Shown here piece after piece: positions 10,150-29,539 of a DNA stretch of 34,252 nucleotides. The notes below the pieces were generated by a model, which did no database searches, was not told where the DNA came from, and was given only the letters and a program-made list of their open reading frames with translations. The position numbers and the translations under genes were made by a program. Source of the stretch: Trueperaceae bacterium (GTDB lineage: Bacteria; Deinococcota; Deinococci; Deinococcales; Trueperaceae); contig JAABRX010000041.1 in NCBI GenBank assembly GCA_011390675.1, positions 1 through 34,252 of the forward strand, read 5' to 3'. How positions within the stretch are numbered: position 1 is the stretch's first letter; each line of letters begins with the position of its first letter.

Positions 10150-10719
10150 CTAACGGCCACCCTGAGGCTTGTCGGGACGCCGATCCTGGCCCGGAGGCTC
10201 TTCCGGACGCCGATCCTGACCCGGGGGCTCCTCTGGACGTCGATCCTGGCCCGGGGGCTCTTCCGGACGCCGATCCTGCCCAGGAGGCTCGCCGTCGCGG
10301 CCGGGGATCTCCCGGTCTTCGGCACGGGGCTCGTCCTCGCGACCCTGCTCGACGCCCGGCGGGTCGGCGGGTGCGCCCGGCTCCGCCACGAAGCGCACCG
10401 CGACGTGCTCGAACGCCGCGGCCAGCAGCACGCGGAGGTCGACCCCCTCGATGCTGACGACGCCATCCGCGATCGCCACGTCGATCGCACGGGTGCCCCC
10501 GTCGTCGAGGAACAGCGTGAGCCGAGCCGTTCCCTCGAAGCCGCTCCAGACCTCCACGGACACCGACGCGCCACCCACGGTTCGGCCGATGGCGACGATG
10601 ACGCCCTGGGCGTCGGTGACGATGAACTCGGCATCCGATGGGAACTCGAAGGCGTGCGCGAGCGACGCCGCGAGCACGACGACCATCGCCGCGACGACGG
10701 TGCGGAGTTGACGGCGCAT
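10150..10719 (-). CDS. Small secreted protein A (189 aa) with repeat tail; paralog of 24130-24696
   Basis: Signal peptide MRRQLRTVVAAMVVVLAASLAHA; core EFPSDAEFIVTDAQGVIVAIGRTVGG…DGVVSIEGVDLRVLL; C-terminal (EEPPGQDRRP)n tail. Confidence 0.85.
   Translation of the reverse strand: MRRQLRTVVAAMVVVLAASLAHAFEFPSDAEFIVTDAQGVIVAIGRTVGGASVSVEVWSGFEGTARLTLFLDDGGTRAIDVAIADGVVSIEGVDLRVLLAAAFEHVAVRFVAEPGAPADPPGVEQGREDEPRAEDREIPGRDGEPPGQDRRPEEPPGQDRRPEEPPGQDRRPEEPPGQDRRPDKPQGGR
10161..10290 (-). repeat. 30-bp in-frame tandem repeat, about 4.3 copies, encoding (QDRRPEEPPG)n
   Basis: Copies at 10161-10190, 10191-10220, 10221-10250, 10251-10280 and partial 10281-10290 (consensus ccggggctcttccggacgccgatcctggc-like). 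Confidence 0.9.
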
Positions 10720-10770: not shown

Positions 10771-10802
10771 AGCATAGGCAAACGCACTGACGCGACTCTG
10801 AA
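10771..10802 (-). promoter_or_regulatory. Predicted regulator-activated promoter of secreted protein A
   Basis: Minus strand TTCAG-AGTCGC-GTCAG-TGCGTTTGCC-TATGCT: direct repeat with 11-bp period, 10 bp upstream of a -10-like TATGCT. Confidence 0.6.
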
Positions 10803-10838: not shown

Positions 10839-12128
10839 TCACGGCGTCGGGTCCGCGCCGGTCGCCTCGAGCCGCGCGGCGAGGCTCGGGAGCCGGACCT
10901 CGAACACCGCGCCGCCGCCCGCTGCCGACGAGGCGGTGACCCTACCGCCGTGCTGCTCGACCCACTGCCGCGCGACCACCAACCCGATCCCGGAGCCCGA
11001 TCCGCGGCGGACGCCCCGATCGAACGGCGTCGCCTGCGCGTCGGGGTCGAGACCCGGCCCGTCGTCGACCACGCGCACGACCTGTGCGTCGCCGTCCTCG
11101 GCGAGCTCGAGCCGCACGCCCTCGGGGCGGCCCGCCGCCTGGACCGCGTTGCGCACGAGGTTGCGCAGCGCCTGCATCAAGCGGTCGCGGTCGCCGATCA
11201 CCTCGCCGATCCGCGGCGCGACCACCTCGAGCCCCGGGAACTCGCCCGCCGCCTGCGCGAGCAGGTCGCGCAGGTCCACGACGTGCGGCTCGAGCGGGCG
11301 TTCGAGCTCGCCGCGCGCCAGCACCAGCAGGTCCTGCGAGGTGCGCAGCAGCTCGTGCGCGGCACCGGTCGCCGCCCGGAGTTGCGGATCCTCGGGGTAG
11401 CGCTGCCCGACCTCGGTCAGGTGGTAGTGGACGAGCGTCAGCGGGCCGGCGAGCTCGTGCGCGACCTCGAGCAGGAACGCGCGCTCGGTTCGGGTGCGCT
11501 CGCGGATGGCGGCCAGCGCGTGGTTGAGCGCGCCCGTGAGCGACCGGACCTCGGTGAGCCCGCCGTCGTAGCGGATCGCATCCGGCGTCGCCGGATCGAC
11601 GTTCCGCGCGGCGGCGGCGACGCGATCGAGCGGCGCCAGCGCCCGACGCACCGCGACGACCGCGACCAAGCTCGCGAGCAGGAAGGTCAGCGCGCCGCCC
11701 ACCGCCAAGCTGCGCCCGAGCTCGCGGCGGGTGGCCAGGGCGGCGCCTTGGTCGTGGGCGATGCGGATCGACGCGCCCGCTTCGCGCCACGGAGCGCTCC
11801 CGACCAGATGGGGCCGACCCGCGACGAGCAGCGTCGCGGCCGGCGACGTGAGCGGCAGCGGCTCGTCGGATCCCCATGCCAGCACCAGCTGTCCGTCGGC
11901 GCCCACCAGCTGGACGACGAAGCCTGGAGCCGAGCCGGCGGCCAACGAAGCGCCCAGCACCGGTTGCTCGAAGAGCGCGGCCACCCGCTCGAGGTCGTCG
12001 GCGAGCAGACGCCGCATCGCCGCGTCCTGCTGCCGCACGAAGCCGGCGTAGGCAAGCAAGCCGAACGCCACCACGACCGCGGCCGACAGCAGGGCAACGC
12101 CCACGCCGATCCCGGTCTTGAGGCTCAC
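10839..12128 (-). CDS. Sensor histidine kinase A (429 aa)
   Basis: GTG start overlapping regulator stop (GTGA). Two TM segments, H-box FLLEVAHELAGPLTLVHYHL, N-box NLVRNAVQAAGR, G-box VVDDGPGLD. Confidence 0.93.
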   Translation of the reverse strand: MSLKTGIGVGVALLSAAVVVAFGLLAYAGFVRQQDAAMRRLLADDLERVAALFEQPVLGASLAAGSAPGFVVQLVGADGQLVLAWGSDEPLPLTSPAATLLVAGRPHLVGSAPWREAGASIRIAHDQGAALATRRELGRSLAVGGALTFLLASLVAVVAVRRALAPLDRVAAAARNVDPATPDAIRYDGGLTEVRSLTGALNHALAAIRERTRTERAFLLEVAHELAGPLTLVHYHLTEVGQRYPEDPQLRAATGAAHELLRTSQDLLVLARGELERPLEPHVVDLRDLLAQAAGEFPGLEVVAPRIGEVIGDRDRLMQALRNLVRNAVQAAGRPEGVRLELAEDGDAQVVRVVDDGPGLDPDAQATPFDRGVRRGSGSGIGLVVARQWVEQHGGRVTASSAAGGGAVFEVRLPSLAARLEATGADPTP

Positions 12129-12790
12129 TGGGGCGCTTCGCGGACCACGTACCCGAGCCCACGCACGGTGTCGATCACCCCTTGGGCCCCCGCTTCGGCG
12201 AGCTTCTTGCGCAACCGCGACACGACCACCTCGAGCGCGTTCGAGGCGGGGGGCGCGTCCGCGAACAAGCGGTCCTCGAGCTCCCCCTTGGCGAACACGC
12301 GCCCCTGACGCTCGAGGAGCGCGTGCAGGAGCTCGAACTCCTGCGCGGTCAGCGGAACGGCGACGCCGGCGACGGTGCAGGCACGCCCTTCGACGTCGAG
12401 CGCGAGCGCACCGTGGCGGACGCCGACGGCGCGCGAGCGACCCCGAAGGCGCGCGAAGATCCGGGCGAGCAGCTCGTCCATGGCGAACGGCTTGCTCACG
12501 TAGTCGTCGGCGCCGGCGTAGAGGCCCCGCACGCGGCTCGCGACGTCGCTGCGCGCGGTCAGCATGACGATGTCGGCGGCGTGCGCCGCCAGGTGCTGGG
12601 CCACGTCGATGCCGTCCATGTCGGGCAGGTTGAGGTCGAGCAGGATCAGGTCGACGTCGGGTCGGGCCAACGCGAGCGCGTCGCCCCCGGTGTGCGCGAC
12701 CACGGTGTCGTACTCACGGCCGATCGCCCGCGCCAGCGCCTCCGCCAACGCGACGTCGTCCTCGACGATCAACACCTTCGGCCGCTGCAT
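12125..12790 (-). CDS. OmpR/PhoB-family response regulator A (221 aa)
   Basis: VLIVEDD, LILLDLNLPDMDGID phospho-acceptor, DDYVSKPF, wHTH with SNALEVVVSRLRKKL and RGLGYVV. Confidence 0.95.
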   Translation of the reverse strand: MQRPKVLIVEDDVALAEALARAIGREYDTVVAHTGGDALALARPDVDLILLDLNLPDMDGIDVAQHLAAHAADIVMLTARSDVASRVRGLYAGADDYVSKPFAMDELLARIFARLRGRSRAVGVRHGALALDVEGRACTVAGVAVPLTAQEFELLHALLERQGRVFAKGELEDRLFADAPPASNALEVVVSRLRKKLAEAGAQGVIDTVRGLGYVVREAPQ

Positions 12791-13462: not shown

Positions 13463-14568
13463 TCAGGTCGCCGAACGCGCCCCCGCCCGCCGGTCCATCC
13501 ACGCCACCACCGCGAGGTGGGGCATCGTCAGGGCGCTGATCCACGCTAGGTACAGCGCGACGAACCCGCCGACCCCGTCGATGCGCGGGCCCGCCCACGC
13601 GCCGAGCGCCGCGAGGAAGAGCAGCGCGATCCCCGTGATGGGGATCAGGTCGCGCGCCAGCCGCAGCACCGGCCCACGAAGGTCGCCGCAGGCGACCGCG
13701 CGCGCGTCGACGTCGCGCAGCAACAGCAGCCGCGCCAGGTGGCGCAGCGAGTGCCAGAAGAGGAAATAGGCGCCGATGGCCAGGTAGGCGGGCACCCAGG
13801 CGAAGAGCGCCACGAGCAGGGCCACCTCGCCGACGTCGAGCCAGCGACCGGCCGGGGTCGTCCACGCGCGGCGCAGCCCGAGCGCGTAGGCCAGACCGGC
13901 GCCCAGCACCACGACCAGGAGACCGCCGCGCACCATCGGCGCGCCCAGGTCGAGTCCGCCCGCCGCAGCGCCGAAGGCCGCGGCGGCGGACGCCAGCAGC
14001 CCTTCGGCCACCTCGGTCTGGACGAGCACCGGGATGGCGACCGGCAGCGCGCCGCGCAGGACGATGGCCGCGCCATGGGCGAACGGGCCCCCGCGCCGAC
14101 GGCCCAAGAAGCGCTCGAGGAAGTCGACGTCGCCCTGGCCCCAGTGGCCGACGGTCGCCAGCAGGAAGCCGACGAAGGCGAGCCCGGGCGCGACCGACCA
14201 CAGCGCCAGGTAGCCGAGCGCGAGCGCGACGTACCCCGCGAGGAAGAACGCCATCGGCAGCGGCCGACGCCCCCAGGACGCGCCCATGCGGGCGGGCACC
14301 AGGTGGTCGAGCGCCCCGTGCGGCAGACCGAACAGGACCAGCCCCAGGAGCAGCGGCACGAAGGCCGCGCGCTCGGCGGTCGCCGGGGCGAGCGCGAACC
14401 AGGCGAGCGCCGCCACGGCGCCGCCCGTCCCGGCGAGGGCGATGGGCAGCGCCAAGCGGGACGCCGCGCGCGCCGCGTCGGTGTGCGTCCCCGCGCGTCC
14501 GCGCGATGGAACGCGCTCGAGCCCCGCCGTTGGGCGGGACTCGAGCGCGAAGGTGGGACGCGTACCGA

Positions 14569-14572
<4 letters not shown>
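13463..14572 (-). CDS. blh: Brp/Blh family beta-carotene 15,15'-dioxygenase (retinal formation)
   Basis: GLPHGALDHLV, HWGQGDVDF, YFLFWHSLRHLARL, LTMPHLAVVAWMD motifs. TTG at 14572 overlaps the rhodopsin stop (TTGA); start uncertain. Confidence 0.88.
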
Positions 14573-17962
<3,390 letters not shown>

Positions 17963-24129: not shown

Positions 24130-24696
24130 CTAGGGGCGTCTGCCGGGAGCGTCCTCGGGTGGGCCGGGCGGGTCGCCTCGAGGTGGGTCGGCTCGGGGTG
24201 GGTCGGCTCGGGGTGGATCGGCTCGGGGTGGTCCATCGTCGGGCGGGCCAGGCGGATCGGCTCGGGACGGGCCCTCCTCGGGTGGACCGCGCCCCTGGGC
24301 CGGTCCTGGCGCGTCGGCCGGTGGACCCTGGCCGACGTCGGGCGGCCATGCTTCGCCGAGCTCCGTCGCGAGCCGCACGCGCACGTACGCGAACGTCTCG
24401 GGCAAGAGCGACCTCAGGTCGACGCCGTCCACCCAGACCACGCCGTCCTCGACCTCGACTTCGGTCGTCCGTACGCCCCCATCGGGCGGCAACCACACCA
24501 GCGAAGCAGGACCGGCGAAGCCCTCTTCGAGCACGAGTTCGAAGCGCACCCCACCGATGACGCGGCCGACGCCCACGATCCGGCTGTCCGAATCGGTCAC
24601 GAGCACCTCGGCCTCCGCCGGGATCTCGAGCGCGCTCGCGAACGTCGCCATCAGGGCCACGAGGAGCACGCACGTCCATGTCCACGCTCGTTGCAT
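24130..24696 (-). CDS. Small secreted protein B (188 aa) with repeat tail; paralog of 10150-10719
   Basis: Signal peptide MQRAWTWTCVLLVALMATFASA; core EIPAEAEVLVTDSDSRIVGVGRVIGG…DGVVWVDGVDLRSLL; (ADPPR)n tail. Confidence 0.85.
   Translation of the reverse strand: MQRAWTWTCVLLVALMATFASALEIPAEAEVLVTDSDSRIVGVGRVIGGVRFELVLEEGFAGPASLVWLPPDGGVRTTEVEVEDGVVWVDGVDLRSLLPETFAYVRVRLATELGEAWPPDVGQGPPADAPGPAQGRGPPEEGPSRADPPGPPDDGPPRADPPRADPPRADPPRGDPPGPPEDAPGRRP
24178..24237 (-). repeat. 15-bp in-frame tandem repeat, about 4 copies, encoding (ADPPR)n
   Basis: 24178-24192, 24193-24207, 24208-24222, 24223-24237 (tcggggtgggtcggc). Confidence 0.88.
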
Positions 24697-24746: not shown

Positions 24747-24778
24747 AGCCTAGAGCGCGCACCTGACGGGAGGCTGAC
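24747..24778 (-). promoter_or_regulatory. Predicted regulator-activated promoter of secreted protein B
   Basis: Minus strand GTCAG-CCTCCC-GTCAG-GTGCGCGCTC-TAGGCT; same spacing as 10771-10802. Confidence 0.62.
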
Positions 24779-24806: not shown

Positions 24807-26096
24807 TCACGACGCGCCGCCCGGGGCCGGCGTCGCCAACCGCGTCGCGAGCGACGGCAAGCGCACCTCGAAGACCGCACCGGGCCCCGCCTCGGCCAAG
24901 GCCTCGATGCGTCCCCCGTGCCGCTCGACCAGGTCCTTGGCGATCGACAAGCCGACGCCGCTGCCCTCGCCCCGCCGGTAGCCGCGCTCGAACACGGCCG
25001 TCCGCGCCTCGGCGTCGAGGCCCGGCCCGTCGTCCGCGACGCGGACCACGTGCTCGTCGTCGCGCGCTTCGAGGGTCACGCGCACGCCGTTCGCGCGGCC
25101 CGCGGCCTGCACGCCGTTGCGCACCAGGTTGCGGAACACCTGGGCCAAACGATCCGCATCCGCGACGACGTCGCCACGCTCGTCTGCTTCGAGCACGACG
25201 CCGGGGTAGGCGCGCACGACGCGCTGCAGCACGTCGCGCAACGCCACGATCGACATCTCGAGCGGTCGCGCGTCCTCACCGCGTGCGACCACGAGCAGAT
25301 CTTGCGAGGTGCGCAGCAGCTCCTCGGCGGCCTCGGCCGCCACCCTCAACGAGACGTCGTCGGGACGCTCCCGGCGCGCGGAGCCCAGGTGGTAGTGGAC
25401 GAGCGTCAAGGGCCCGGCGAGCTCGTGGGCGACCTCCAGCAAGAACGCGTGCTCGCGGTCCGAGCGCTCGCGGATGGCGGCGAGGGTCTCGTTCAACGCA
25501 TCGGTCACGACGCGCAGCTCGTCGTCGCCGCCCGCGTACGCGATGGCGCCCGGCGCGGACGGGTCGATCCGGCGCGCGTCGGCCGCCACCCGCTCGAGGG
25601 GCCGCAGCGCTCGCCGCGCCACCGTGCCCGCCAACCACAAGGCGATCGCACCGGCGACGACGCCCCCCGTCCACAGGCTGCGCAGCAGCGCCGACCGCGT
25701 CGCCAGCGCGTCCTCGACGTCGTGGGCGACCCGGATCGTGGCGCCGCCGTCGCGCCAAGCGGTGCTTCCGACGAGCGCGCGGCGCCCCTCGAGCACCCGG
25801 ATGGCGGCCGGTGCCACGAGCGGCAGCTGGGTGGTGATGCCCCACGACAGCACGGTCGCTCCGTCGGGCGAGACGATCTGGACGCCGTACCCCGGGACCG
25901 CCGGGTCCACGAACGAGGCCCCCAGCACGGGACGCTCGAGCAGCGCCGCCAGCCGCCCCAGGTCCTCGTCGAGAAGTCGCCGCATCGAAGCGTCCTGCTG
26001 GCGCACGAAGCCCACGTACGCCAGCGCGCCGAACGCCGCGACGACCACGAGCGTCAAGGCCGCGCTGCCCAGCGCGACGCGCCTCGCGAGCCTCAA
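24807..26096 (-). CDS. Sensor histidine kinase B (429 aa), paralog of 10839-12128
   Basis: TTG start overlapping regulator stop (TTGA) gives exactly 429 aa as in kinase A. GFVRQQDASMRRLLDEDL, LLEVAHELAGPLTLVHYHL, NLVRNGVQAAGR. Confidence 0.9.
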   Translation of the reverse strand: MRLARRVALGSAALTLVVVAAFGALAYVGFVRQQDASMRRLLDEDLGRLAALLERPVLGASFVDPAVPGYGVQIVSPDGATVLSWGITTQLPLVAPAAIRVLEGRRALVGSTAWRDGGATIRVAHDVEDALATRSALLRSLWTGGVVAGAIALWLAGTVARRALRPLERVAADARRIDPSAPGAIAYAGGDDELRVVTDALNETLAAIRERSDREHAFLLEVAHELAGPLTLVHYHLGSARRERPDDVSLRVAAEAAEELLRTSQDLLVVARGEDARPLEMSIVALRDVLQRVVRAYPGVVLEADERGDVVADADRLAQVFRNLVRNGVQAAGRANGVRVTLEARDDEHVVRVADDGPGLDAEARTAVFERGYRRGEGSGVGLSIAKDLVERHGGRIEALAEAGPGAVFEVRLPSLATRLATPAPGGAS

Positions 26097-26761
26097 GGAC
26101 CCTCGCCGCGGACGACGTAGCCGAGCCCCCGGATCGTCTCGATCATGGACGCCAGCTCGACGGCGGCGAGCTTCTTGCGGACGCGCGACACGAGCACCTC
26201 GATCGCGTTCGAGTCGGGTTGCTGCTCGGCGTAGAGCCGGTCCTCGAGCGTGCGCTTGGAGAACACGCGGTCGGGGTGCTCGAGCAGGAGCGCGAGCAGG
26301 TGGTACTCCTGGGCCGAGAGGTCGACGCGCTCGCCATCGACGAAGCAGCTGCGGTCGGCGAGCGTCATCTCGAGCCGGCCCCAGCGGACCTGACCCGCAC
26401 GCGACCGCGTGCGCATCCGCGCGTACACCCGCGCGAGCAGCTCCTCCATATCGAAGGGCTTGCTCACGTAGTCGGCGGCCCCCGCGTAGAGCCCGCGCAC
26501 CCGACTCGCCACGTCGCTGCGCGCGGTGAGCATGATGACGTCGGCCGGGTTGGCCTCCAATTGCGTGGCCACGTCGATGCCGTCCATGTCCGGCAGGTTG
26601 AGGTCGAGCAGGACCAGGTCGAAGCGCTGGGTCTCGGCCAGGAACAACGCGTCCTTGCCGGTGTCGACGACCACGGTCTCGTAGCCGCGCCCCAGCTCGC
26701 GGGCCACGACCTCCGCCAAGCGATCGTCGTCCTCCACGATCAGGATGCGCCCGCGCGACAC
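26093..26761 (-). CDS. OmpR/PhoB-family response regulator B, paralog of 12125-12790
   Basis: GTG 26761 (VSRGRILIVEDDDRL); LVLLDLNLPDMDGID, ARSDVASRVRGLYAGAADYVSKPF, SNAIEVLVSRVRKKL. ORF extends to 26863. Confidence 0.93.
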   Translation of the reverse strand: MSRGRILIVEDDDRLAEVVARELGRGYETVVVDTGKDALFLAETQRFDLVLLDLNLPDMDGIDVATQLEANPADVIMLTARSDVASRVRGLYAGAADYVSKPFDMEELLARVYARMRTRSRAGQVRWGRLEMTLADRSCFVDGERVDLSAQEYHLLALLLEHPDRVFSKRTLEDRLYAEQQPDSNAIEVLVSRVRKKLAAVELASMIETIRGLGYVVRGEGP

Positions 26762-26886: not shown

Positions 26887-26918
26887 GTCAGGTTGGGGTC
26901 AGGTGCCGCCGGTACCTT
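26887..26918 (+). promoter_or_regulatory. Third copy of the shared promoter architecture, upstream of secreted protein C
   Basis: Plus strand GTCAG-GTTGGG-GTCAG-GTGCCGCCGG-TACCTT; identical N6 and N10 spacings. Confidence 0.55.
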
Positions 26919-27069
26919 GCCCATGGACACCGACGTGTCCGCCTCGGTGGCAACGAAACCCGGCCCGCATGTGGGCGCCTGGACCGGGTCGAGCCAGTGG
27001 CGCAACCGCCCGAGGAACCGACCGAACCGCCGTGCGCCCGCACCGGCCCGACGCCTTGGAGGCGATCGC

Positions 27070-27618
27070 ATGAAGCGTACGTTGTTCACCCTGATGTTCT
27101 TGGCCACGTTCGGCATGGCGCTCGCGGGACCCCCCGTGGACGTCCAACTCGTCTGCGGCACGGACGAGGACGCTGCGCTCGTGGGCGTCGCCAGCCTCGT
27201 CGAGGACCAGCTGCACGTGGCGCTGATCGACGGCGCGCTGGAGGCGTGCACCGCAGGTGTGTACGGCGTCGTCGACGGCGCGACGGTCTTCACCGTGAGT
27301 TACCTGCTGGTGGACGGTGTGGTCGACGACGTCCAGGTGGTGTTCGAGGAGGACTCGACGTACGAGCCGGCGCTCACGTACGGCGAGGTGCCCGAAGTGG
27401 CCGTCGAGGGCAAACTCGGCGCGCAGCAGAACCGCGCCATGGCCCGCGAGCGAGCCACGCAAGCCCGCGAGCGGGCGGCGGAGCACGCCGGCGGTCCGAA
27501 CATGGACGCGCCGGACGACGGCGGCGACGGCGAAGAGGAAGAGGTCGAGGCCGACGGCGAGGACCACGACGGACCGCCCGCCGACCTGCCCGCGCCCGCG
27601 ACCCGTGGGCGTCGCTGA
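27070..27618 (+). CDS. Secreted protein C with Arg/Glu-rich segment and acidic tail
   Basis: Signal peptide MKRTLFTLMFLATFGMALAG; tail DDGGDGEEEEVEADGEDHDGPPADLPAPATRGRR. Confidence 0.78.
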   Translation: MKRTLFTLMFLATFGMALAGPPVDVQLVCGTDEDAALVGVASLVEDQLHVALIDGALEACTAGVYGVVDGATVFTVSYLLVDGVVDDVQVVFEEDSTYEPALTYGEVPEVAVEGKLGAQQNRAMARERATQARERAAEHAGGPNMDAPDDGGDGEEEEVEADGEDHDGPPADLPAPATRGRR

Positions 27619-27717: not shown

Positions 27718-28398
27718 TCAGCGAGACGAGACGAAGTGCCAGGCCACCTGCGCCCGTGGGAATGGCTGCACCGACGCGTGGACGTCGCGGCAATCGCAGT
27801 AGCCGATGCTCTCGGCGACGGCGACGGTCTCGAACACCACCGTGTTCCAGCCGGCCGCGAGCTCGATGTCGTAGGTCTCCTGGCCCCACCCGAACGTGCA
27901 GCGGCCGGTGACGGTCGCCGCCCGCTCAGCGTGGATCCAGCGGACCTCGACGTCGCCCGTGGTCGCGAGGCTGCCATGCTCCTTGGTGGCGGCGTACAGC
28001 GTCCCGAGCGTCTCGCAGTACTCGCACGCAGCGCCGCGGGGGACGATGCGCAGCTCGCGGACCATCACGACACGAGCCTCGGGCTCGGACACGGTCAAGT
28101 CCTCGCAGCGCTGCCCCGCGAACAGGTTCTCGAGCGGCACCGTGACGTCGTCGGGCAGGTAGGGGGCTTCGTGGAAGGCGAGCGCGAAGGAGCCGTCGGC
28201 ACCGACGGAGCCGCGGCCGACCTCGACCGGGAACCAGGCGAGCCCAGCTCGGGCTTCGGCGACCAGATCGGCGGGCGCCACCTGGGCGCACGCACCGACG
28301 GTGCCGTTGACGCGCGTCTGCGACCAAGCAGCGCCTAGCATCGCGAACAGCGCGACGACGACGGCAACGCGCAAGGCGGAGCGACGACGGGATCTCAT
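27718..28398 (-). CDS. Secreted Cys-containing protein of unknown function
   Basis: Signal peptide MRSRRRSALRVAVVVALFAMLGAAWSQ; Cys at GACAQ, RCEDL, ACEYCETLG, GRCTFGWG, YCDCRD. Confidence 0.78.
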   Translation of the reverse strand: MRSRRRSALRVAVVVALFAMLGAAWSQTRVNGTVGACAQVAPADLVAEARAGLAWFPVEVGRGSVGADGSFALAFHEAPYLPDDVTVPLENLFAGQRCEDLTVSEPEARVVMVRELRIVPRGAACEYCETLGTLYAATKEHGSLATTGDVEVRWIHAERAATVTGRCTFGWGQETYDIELAAGWNTVVFETVAVAESIGYCDCRDVHASVQPFPRAQVAWHFVSSR

Positions 28399-28801: not shown

Positions 28802-29539
28802 ATGCATCGCAACCCGATGACCGGCACGACCGAACGAACCGGCCCGACTCGATCCGCACGCGTTCGCCGCGCACCGACCCGGGCCCTAGTCGGTGTCCTG
28901 GCGGCGGCCGCGCTCGCGCTGCCGACGACCGGCGCGCTCGCCCAGAGCGACGTCGATTCGTCCGAGGTGGTGCTCGCGAGCCTTGGCGACGCGACCGTGA
29001 CGCTCGAAGCGTTCGAGCTCCGGTTCGAGGCGGCGGTGCGTTCGACGCTCGCCCAGCAAGGGGTCGAGCCCGACGCGGAGACCGTCGCCGGCTTCGAAGC
29101 GCAGCGGCCGGTGTTCCTGGAGCAACTCGGTCAGGAGCTGGTCTTGAGCGCGCATGCGGAGGAGTTGGGCATCGCCGCGGGCGACGCCGAAGTCGACGCC
29201 GTGGTCGAGCAGGCGCGCGAAGAGCACGGCGCGGATCTCGACGCGGCGCTGGCCGAGATCGGCTTCGGGTCCACCGCGGACTTCGAGACCGCCGTCCGGC
29301 GCTCGCTGAACGCGCAGCGCGTCGTGGAAGCGTTGCGTGCTGAGGTCGAGGTCGACCCGGCCGCGATCGAGGCCTGGTACGAGGCGAACCCCGACCAGGT
29401 GACCGGACCGGACGGCCCGGTTCCGCTCGAAGAGGTGCGCGAGCCGATCGCCGACCTCCTCGCCGGCGAGCACGTCGAGGCGCGGGTGGCCGAGCTGGTG
29501 GCGGAATCCGGGATCGAGACCCATCCCGAACGGCTCTGA
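28802..29539 (+). CDS. Secreted SurA N-terminal-domain-like chaperone, no evident PPIase domain
   Basis: Signal-like N-terminus to GALAQ; LGDATVTLEAFELRFEAAVRSTLAQQG…FLEQLGQELVLSAHAEELGI…EVDPAAIEAWYEANPDQV. Confidence 0.75.
   Translation: MHRNPMTGTTERTGPTRSARVRRAPTRALVGVLAAAALALPTTGALAQSDVDSSEVVLASLGDATVTLEAFELRFEAAVRSTLAQQGVEPDAETVAGFEAQRPVFLEQLGQELVLSAHAEELGIAAGDAEVDAVVEQAREEHGADLDAALAEIGFGSTADFETAVRRSLNAQRVVEALRAEVEVDPAAIEAWYEANPDQVTGPDGPVPLEEVREPIADLLAGEHVEARVAELVAESGIETHPERL

Follow-up and report, generated by a model that had tools for sequence, protein, structure and literature searches.

Gene C, which encodes a small predicted secreted protein, is quite likely a target with two inputs, the features of its upstream region suggesting that an OmpR-type regulator would activate its transcription and that a c-di-GMP riboswitch in the leader would then gate its expression. 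In the proposed mechanism the phosphorylated OmpR/PhoB-type regulator RR1 (perhaps also RR2) would bind as a head-to-tail dimer to the two GTCAG pentamers, and the box would replace the absent -35 element and recruit RNA polymerase to TACCTT, with transcription starting near position 26925. The leader would fold into a c-di-GMP-II aptamer whose P1 helix is stabilised by binding of c-di-GMP, and this stabilisation would make the ribosome-binding site, which lies 40 nt further on, more or less accessible, with more translation at high c-di-GMP as the most likely outcome. The product would be a small secreted protein of a family linked to sensor pairs, of which A and B are encoded behind kinases and C divergently from a regulator. 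The coordinates of the features are collected in Table 1 and refer to the window, i.e., the whole stretch of 34,252 nucleotides that was analysed.

Table 1. Features of the C region and of the related modules A and B in the window.
Feature	Position	Strand	Remarks
Protein A, secreted	10150..10719	-	Repeat tail; B paralogue
Site A TTCAGAGTCGCGTCAG	10787..10802	-	One mismatch (TTCAG); -10 TATGCT
Histidine kinase 2 (HK2)	10839..12128	-	
Response regulator 2 (RR2)	12125..12790	-	RR1 paralogue, similar recognition helix
Protein B, secreted	24130..24696	-	Pro/Asp-rich tail
Site B GTCAGCCTCCCGTCAG	24763..24778	-	-10 TAGGCT at 24747-24752
Histidine kinase 1 (HK1)	24807..26096	-	TTG start overlaps RR1 stop
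Response regulator 1 (RR1)	26093..26761	-	Response_reg and Trans_reg_C; GTG start ~26761
Site C, direct repeat GTCAG-N6-GTCAG, GTCAGGTTGGGGTCAG	26887..26902	+	11-bp period; predicted response-regulator box
-10 element TACCTT	26913..26918	+	10 nt past the repeat; without a sigma-70 -35 hexamer
Predicted transcript start and 5' terminal hairpin GGACAC-CGAC-GUGUCC	26925..26940	+	Start predicted
c-di-GMP-II riboswitch aptamer (Rfam RF01786)	26937..27018	+	58.3 bits against a gathering score of 53.5; E=1.2e-10
Aptamer P1 3' strand CCGAGG	27010..27015	+	Complementary to CCUUGG at 27054-27059, overlapping the Shine-Dalgarno sequence; possible switch pairing
Shine-Dalgarno sequence GGAGG	27058..27062	+	Inside the local hairpin CGCCU-UGG-AGGCG
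Protein C coding sequence	27070..27618	+	ATG at 27070, stop at 27616-27618; 182 aa

According to the initial annotation C is secreted and its tail is acidic, and the gene agrees with this description: it shows the codon pattern of a coding sequence, follows a Shine-Dalgarno sequence (SD), starts with a hydrophobic, signal-peptide-like N-terminus from which secretion is predicted, and closes with a RERATQARERAAEH helix and the acidic tail GDGEEEEVEADGEDHDG. The tail does not, however, set C apart as had been supposed, since many relatives of the B family also end in poly-Asp or Pro/Asp-rich tails. According to an alignment of relatives and a low-confidence structure model the core of C is beta-rich with two conserved cysteines; these are invariant and, like a conserved segment of the form V-P..A..G...A...RA.A, are lacking in A and B. 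Searches of Pfam and NCBIfam gave no family name for A, B or C. The structure models had mean pLDDT values of 55.8 (C alone) and 69.6 (B+A), and Foldseek searches of the PDB with the A, B and C models returned nothing at E<=0.001, so that none of the three proteins is assigned to a named fold. Many C-termini of A, B, C and their relatives finish in GRP, RRP or GRR despite their differing tails, a hint that the terminus may serve as a recognition motif. Two further predicted secreted proteins adjoin C (27718-28398 and 28802-29539), one of them with a SurA-like N-terminal domain.

The statement of the initial annotation that C has no obvious homology to A and B holds at the level of BLAST, by which A and B are paralogues (E=1e-22) and C matches B in the tail only and not in the core, but profile comparison suggests remote homology. 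With hhalign the cores alone gave a score of 22.8 (E=0.0016, at a probability of just 16%), compared with at most 13.3 for 60 column shuffles and 9.1 for the reversed profile; with the signal peptides included the probability was 92.7%. The models of C and of A/B have the same strand order, at low confidence, and a remote relationship between C and the A/B pair is probable.

Each of the two modules runs in one direction (RR2-HK2-A and RR1-HK1-B), with C divergent from RR1, and both regulators are of the OmpR/PhoB type with the receiver and the winged-helix Trans_reg_C domain present. A search of the collection of genome contigs with HK1 returned only distant kinases of other phyla. Near module A a bacteriorhodopsin-like gene adjoins a beta-carotene 15,15'-dioxygenase gene (13463-15360). 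The B family was found in 18 genomes, which represent nine genera, and in most of the loci read its gene directly follows a related kinase. The probable place of action of protein C is the cell surface or the envelope, and its role there could be in the matrix, in adhesion, in handling cations or in modulating the kinase. The last of these functions leads to a tentative reading, compatible with control of C by two inputs, in which the three proteins, like DbfQ, act in the periplasm as feedback modulators of the kinases and not as surface effectors; the tight linkage to the kinase and the DbfQ precedent (PMC12714742) are in keeping with it, whereas no PepSY domain was found in A, B and C (Pfam) or their relatives, unlike in DbfQRS and BqsRS, the Pro/acidic tails are long, and C genes also occur away from a kinase.

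A GTCAG promoter had been proposed for C, with a leader of about 145 nt, and the upstream region indeed contains an exact GTCAG-N6-GTCAG-N10-TACCTT arrangement at this distance, counted from the predicted start near 26925. The motif GTCAG-N6-GTCAG is present twice in the window (~0.05 expected), and in the 3.49 Mb genome the extended motif GTCAG-N6-GTCAG-N10-TA has two exact occurrences (~0.1 expected), one before B and the other before C. Within the genus all ten exact boxes, from five genomes, stand before genes of the B or C family. The boxes of the B family consist of GTCAG, GTAAG, TTAAG or TTCAG, with halves that mostly change together as in the box of a dimer; an ECF or plain sigma-70 promoter for C was rejected for this reason and because there is no sigma-70 match. 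CTTAAG boxes were seen only in the relatives L118 and L120. Recognition helices of the form VSR[VL]R go with GTCAG or GTAAG boxes and ISNLR goes with the CTTAAG boxes in L118, and this covariation of helix and box, a single case, suggests that the box is read by the linked regulator. The predicted C transcript begins with a perfect 6-bp hairpin, which some relatives, with or without an aptamer, retain through base-pair changes and which perhaps protects the mRNA.

Seven other genomes, from two genera, contain relatives of C (G035, with a weak match in pieces, is counted), and every relative has the exact GTCAG box upstream, while the shortness of a further fragment in G026 precluded a judgement. 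The earlier proposal that the regulon reaches C is thereby supported, as the same site precedes relatives of C even at loci with no regulator gene found in the vicinity. The complete arrangement of site, aptamer and C gene is also present in G001, G015 and G035, with aptamers above the gathering score, and in G032, with one below it (E=2e-4); thus 5/5 riboswitch-bearing C genes, counting the weakly C-like gene of G035, have the exact box 18-36 nt ahead of the aptamer. In G001, G004 and G029 the C-like paralogues next to the regulator keep the box and have a short leader without an aptamer match, the leader of the C-like gene in G002 is short in the same way, and G001 holds both kinds of C gene.

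The genome encodes 32 GGDEF domains above the cut-off (predicted c-di-GMP synthase domains) and carries ten c-di-GMP-II aptamers, that of C included. The other nine, among them a tandem pair, precede genes for predicted secreted proteins or lipoproteins, one of these assignments being less sure at a distance of 221 nt. The tandem aptamers (locus L088, G000:C208:469-728) lie ahead of a single secreted-protein gene with the promoter GTCAT-N6-GTGAC-N10-TAGGAT, and the riboswitch genes L090, L089 and L094 have the boxes GTCAG/GTAAG, GTAAG/GTAAG and GTAAG/GTTAC, respectively, with the same N6 and N10 spacing. The idea that GTCAG stands at all c-di-GMP-II promoters proved false outside the C genes, though related GTNAN boxes precede some. 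In another genus (G019) a distant B-family gene lies directly behind a c-di-GMP-II aptamer (L121:2109-2191, 56.4 bits). A wider network in which a response regulator and c-di-GMP act jointly on other riboswitch genes is possible. These other riboswitch genes also bear on an alternative that we regard as unlikely, namely that the riboswitch alone controls C and that the GTCAG repeats are the site of another OmpR-family regulator or simply the form of promoter used in the clade: boxes of the types GTAAG-N6-GTAAG, GTCAG-N6-GTAAG and GTCAT-N6-GTGAC with N10 to the -10 element precede some of them, and PhoB-type boxes share the 11-bp period, but across five genomes the exact box is restricted to genes belonging to this module, and in several genera it is carried by B-family genes that directly follow the kinase.

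An Rfam scan of the whole window returned one family only, the c-di-GMP-II aptamer, located between the predicted transcript start and the SD of C. By this match the leader of C is a c-di-GMP-II riboswitch, a candidate element that the initial annotation had overlooked, and RACE at 26925 alone would therefore leave the control of C hidden. Among five leaders, a small number of sequences, substitutions in the aptamer helices replace both partners of a pair (A-U to G-C, G-C to C-G and C-G to U-A). The aptamer of C scores lowest of the ten in the genome, its GCGAUGA segment departs from the consensus as GCAACGA (G001 and G032 likewise have C for U), so that AACGA replaces GAUGA, and one helix pair is C-A, all of which would fit a decayed riboswitch that has lost binding of c-di-GMP; this is nevertheless very unlikely, as the aptamer scores above the gathering cut-off with an intact 3' core GAGCCAGUGGCGCAACCG, and the riboswitch relative in G001 has a nearly identical leader though the proteins are only ~50% identical.

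For a functional riboswitch in the leader of C, control of translation is favoured because no intrinsic terminator is present in the leader. Whether free or aptamer-enforced, the fold places the SD in a small hairpin of its own, and nested folding, which omits the pseudoknot and the ligand, favours a non-aptamer structure by 15 kcal/mol. From the complementarity of the strands, P1 stabilised by the ligand could free the SD. That c-di-GMP turns C on is moderately probable, a guess which leans on the type II c-di-GMP riboswitches of C. difficile, reported to turn surface genes on (PMC3649979).

It is hardly likely that site C serves mainly in autoregulation of the divergent RR1-HK1 operon, for although the site does lie close to the divergent regulator gene as had been noted (~126 bp claimed, a gap of ~125 bp to the RR1 start being found), at a similar distance in G001, G002 and G004, the orientation and spacing of the repeats point at C, the gene order in G029 is RR-HK-B-C with no site found before RR, and G001 (riboswitch copy), G015 and G032 have site, leader and C with no regulator found nearby (the contigs of G015 and G032 being short).

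With the two-input control of C as the preferred reading, an uncharacterised family of secreted, tail-bearing proteins is tied to two defined signals, each with an exact RNA or DNA site, and c-di-GMP-II riboswitches are placed behind promoters of the response-regulator type. A more far-reaching and rather doubtful version is a coincidence circuit, in which the two-component system and c-di-GMP would jointly gate C and the kinase-linked members of the family would feed back on the kinase; if true, envelope sensing and a signal of sessile lifestyle would meet on one mRNA. The class of riboswitch and the class of regulator are already known, and neither Pfam nor NCBIfam names the secreted family. 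A limited literature search did not find a response-regulator box and a c-di-GMP-II aptamer jointly on such a gene.

The c-di-GMP-II riboswitch (RF01786) is described as typical of clostridia and deinococcus (PMC9495176), and the leader of C resembles other members in the aptamer core, the helices, the position in the 5' leader and a surface or secreted target; it departs from them in the response-regulator-type promoter ahead, the unnamed target family and the altered GAUGA segment. The type II riboswitch genes of C. difficile include pilin and adhesin-like surface targets, so that control of the surface is alike, whereas that set includes a case with a self-splicing intron and no linked two-component box is described in the available part of the study (PMC3649979). 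In DbfQRS and BqsRS with their PepSY proteins, as in the modules described here, a small secreted protein adjoins an OmpR-type regulator and a kinase (PMC12714742, PMC4682146), and the DbfQRS type of layout may thus exist with unrelated secreted proteins. The activity of DbfR in Vibrio cholerae raises c-di-GMP (PMC12714742), whereas here c-di-GMP would act on the target gene via the proposed riboswitch. The operator of BqsR in Pseudomonas aeruginosa, TTAAG-N6-TTAAG (PMC4682146), has the same tandem form of two pentamers, that of BqsR/PmrA-like boxes of the OmpR family, with the same spacing as site C, with TTAAG in place of GTCAG.
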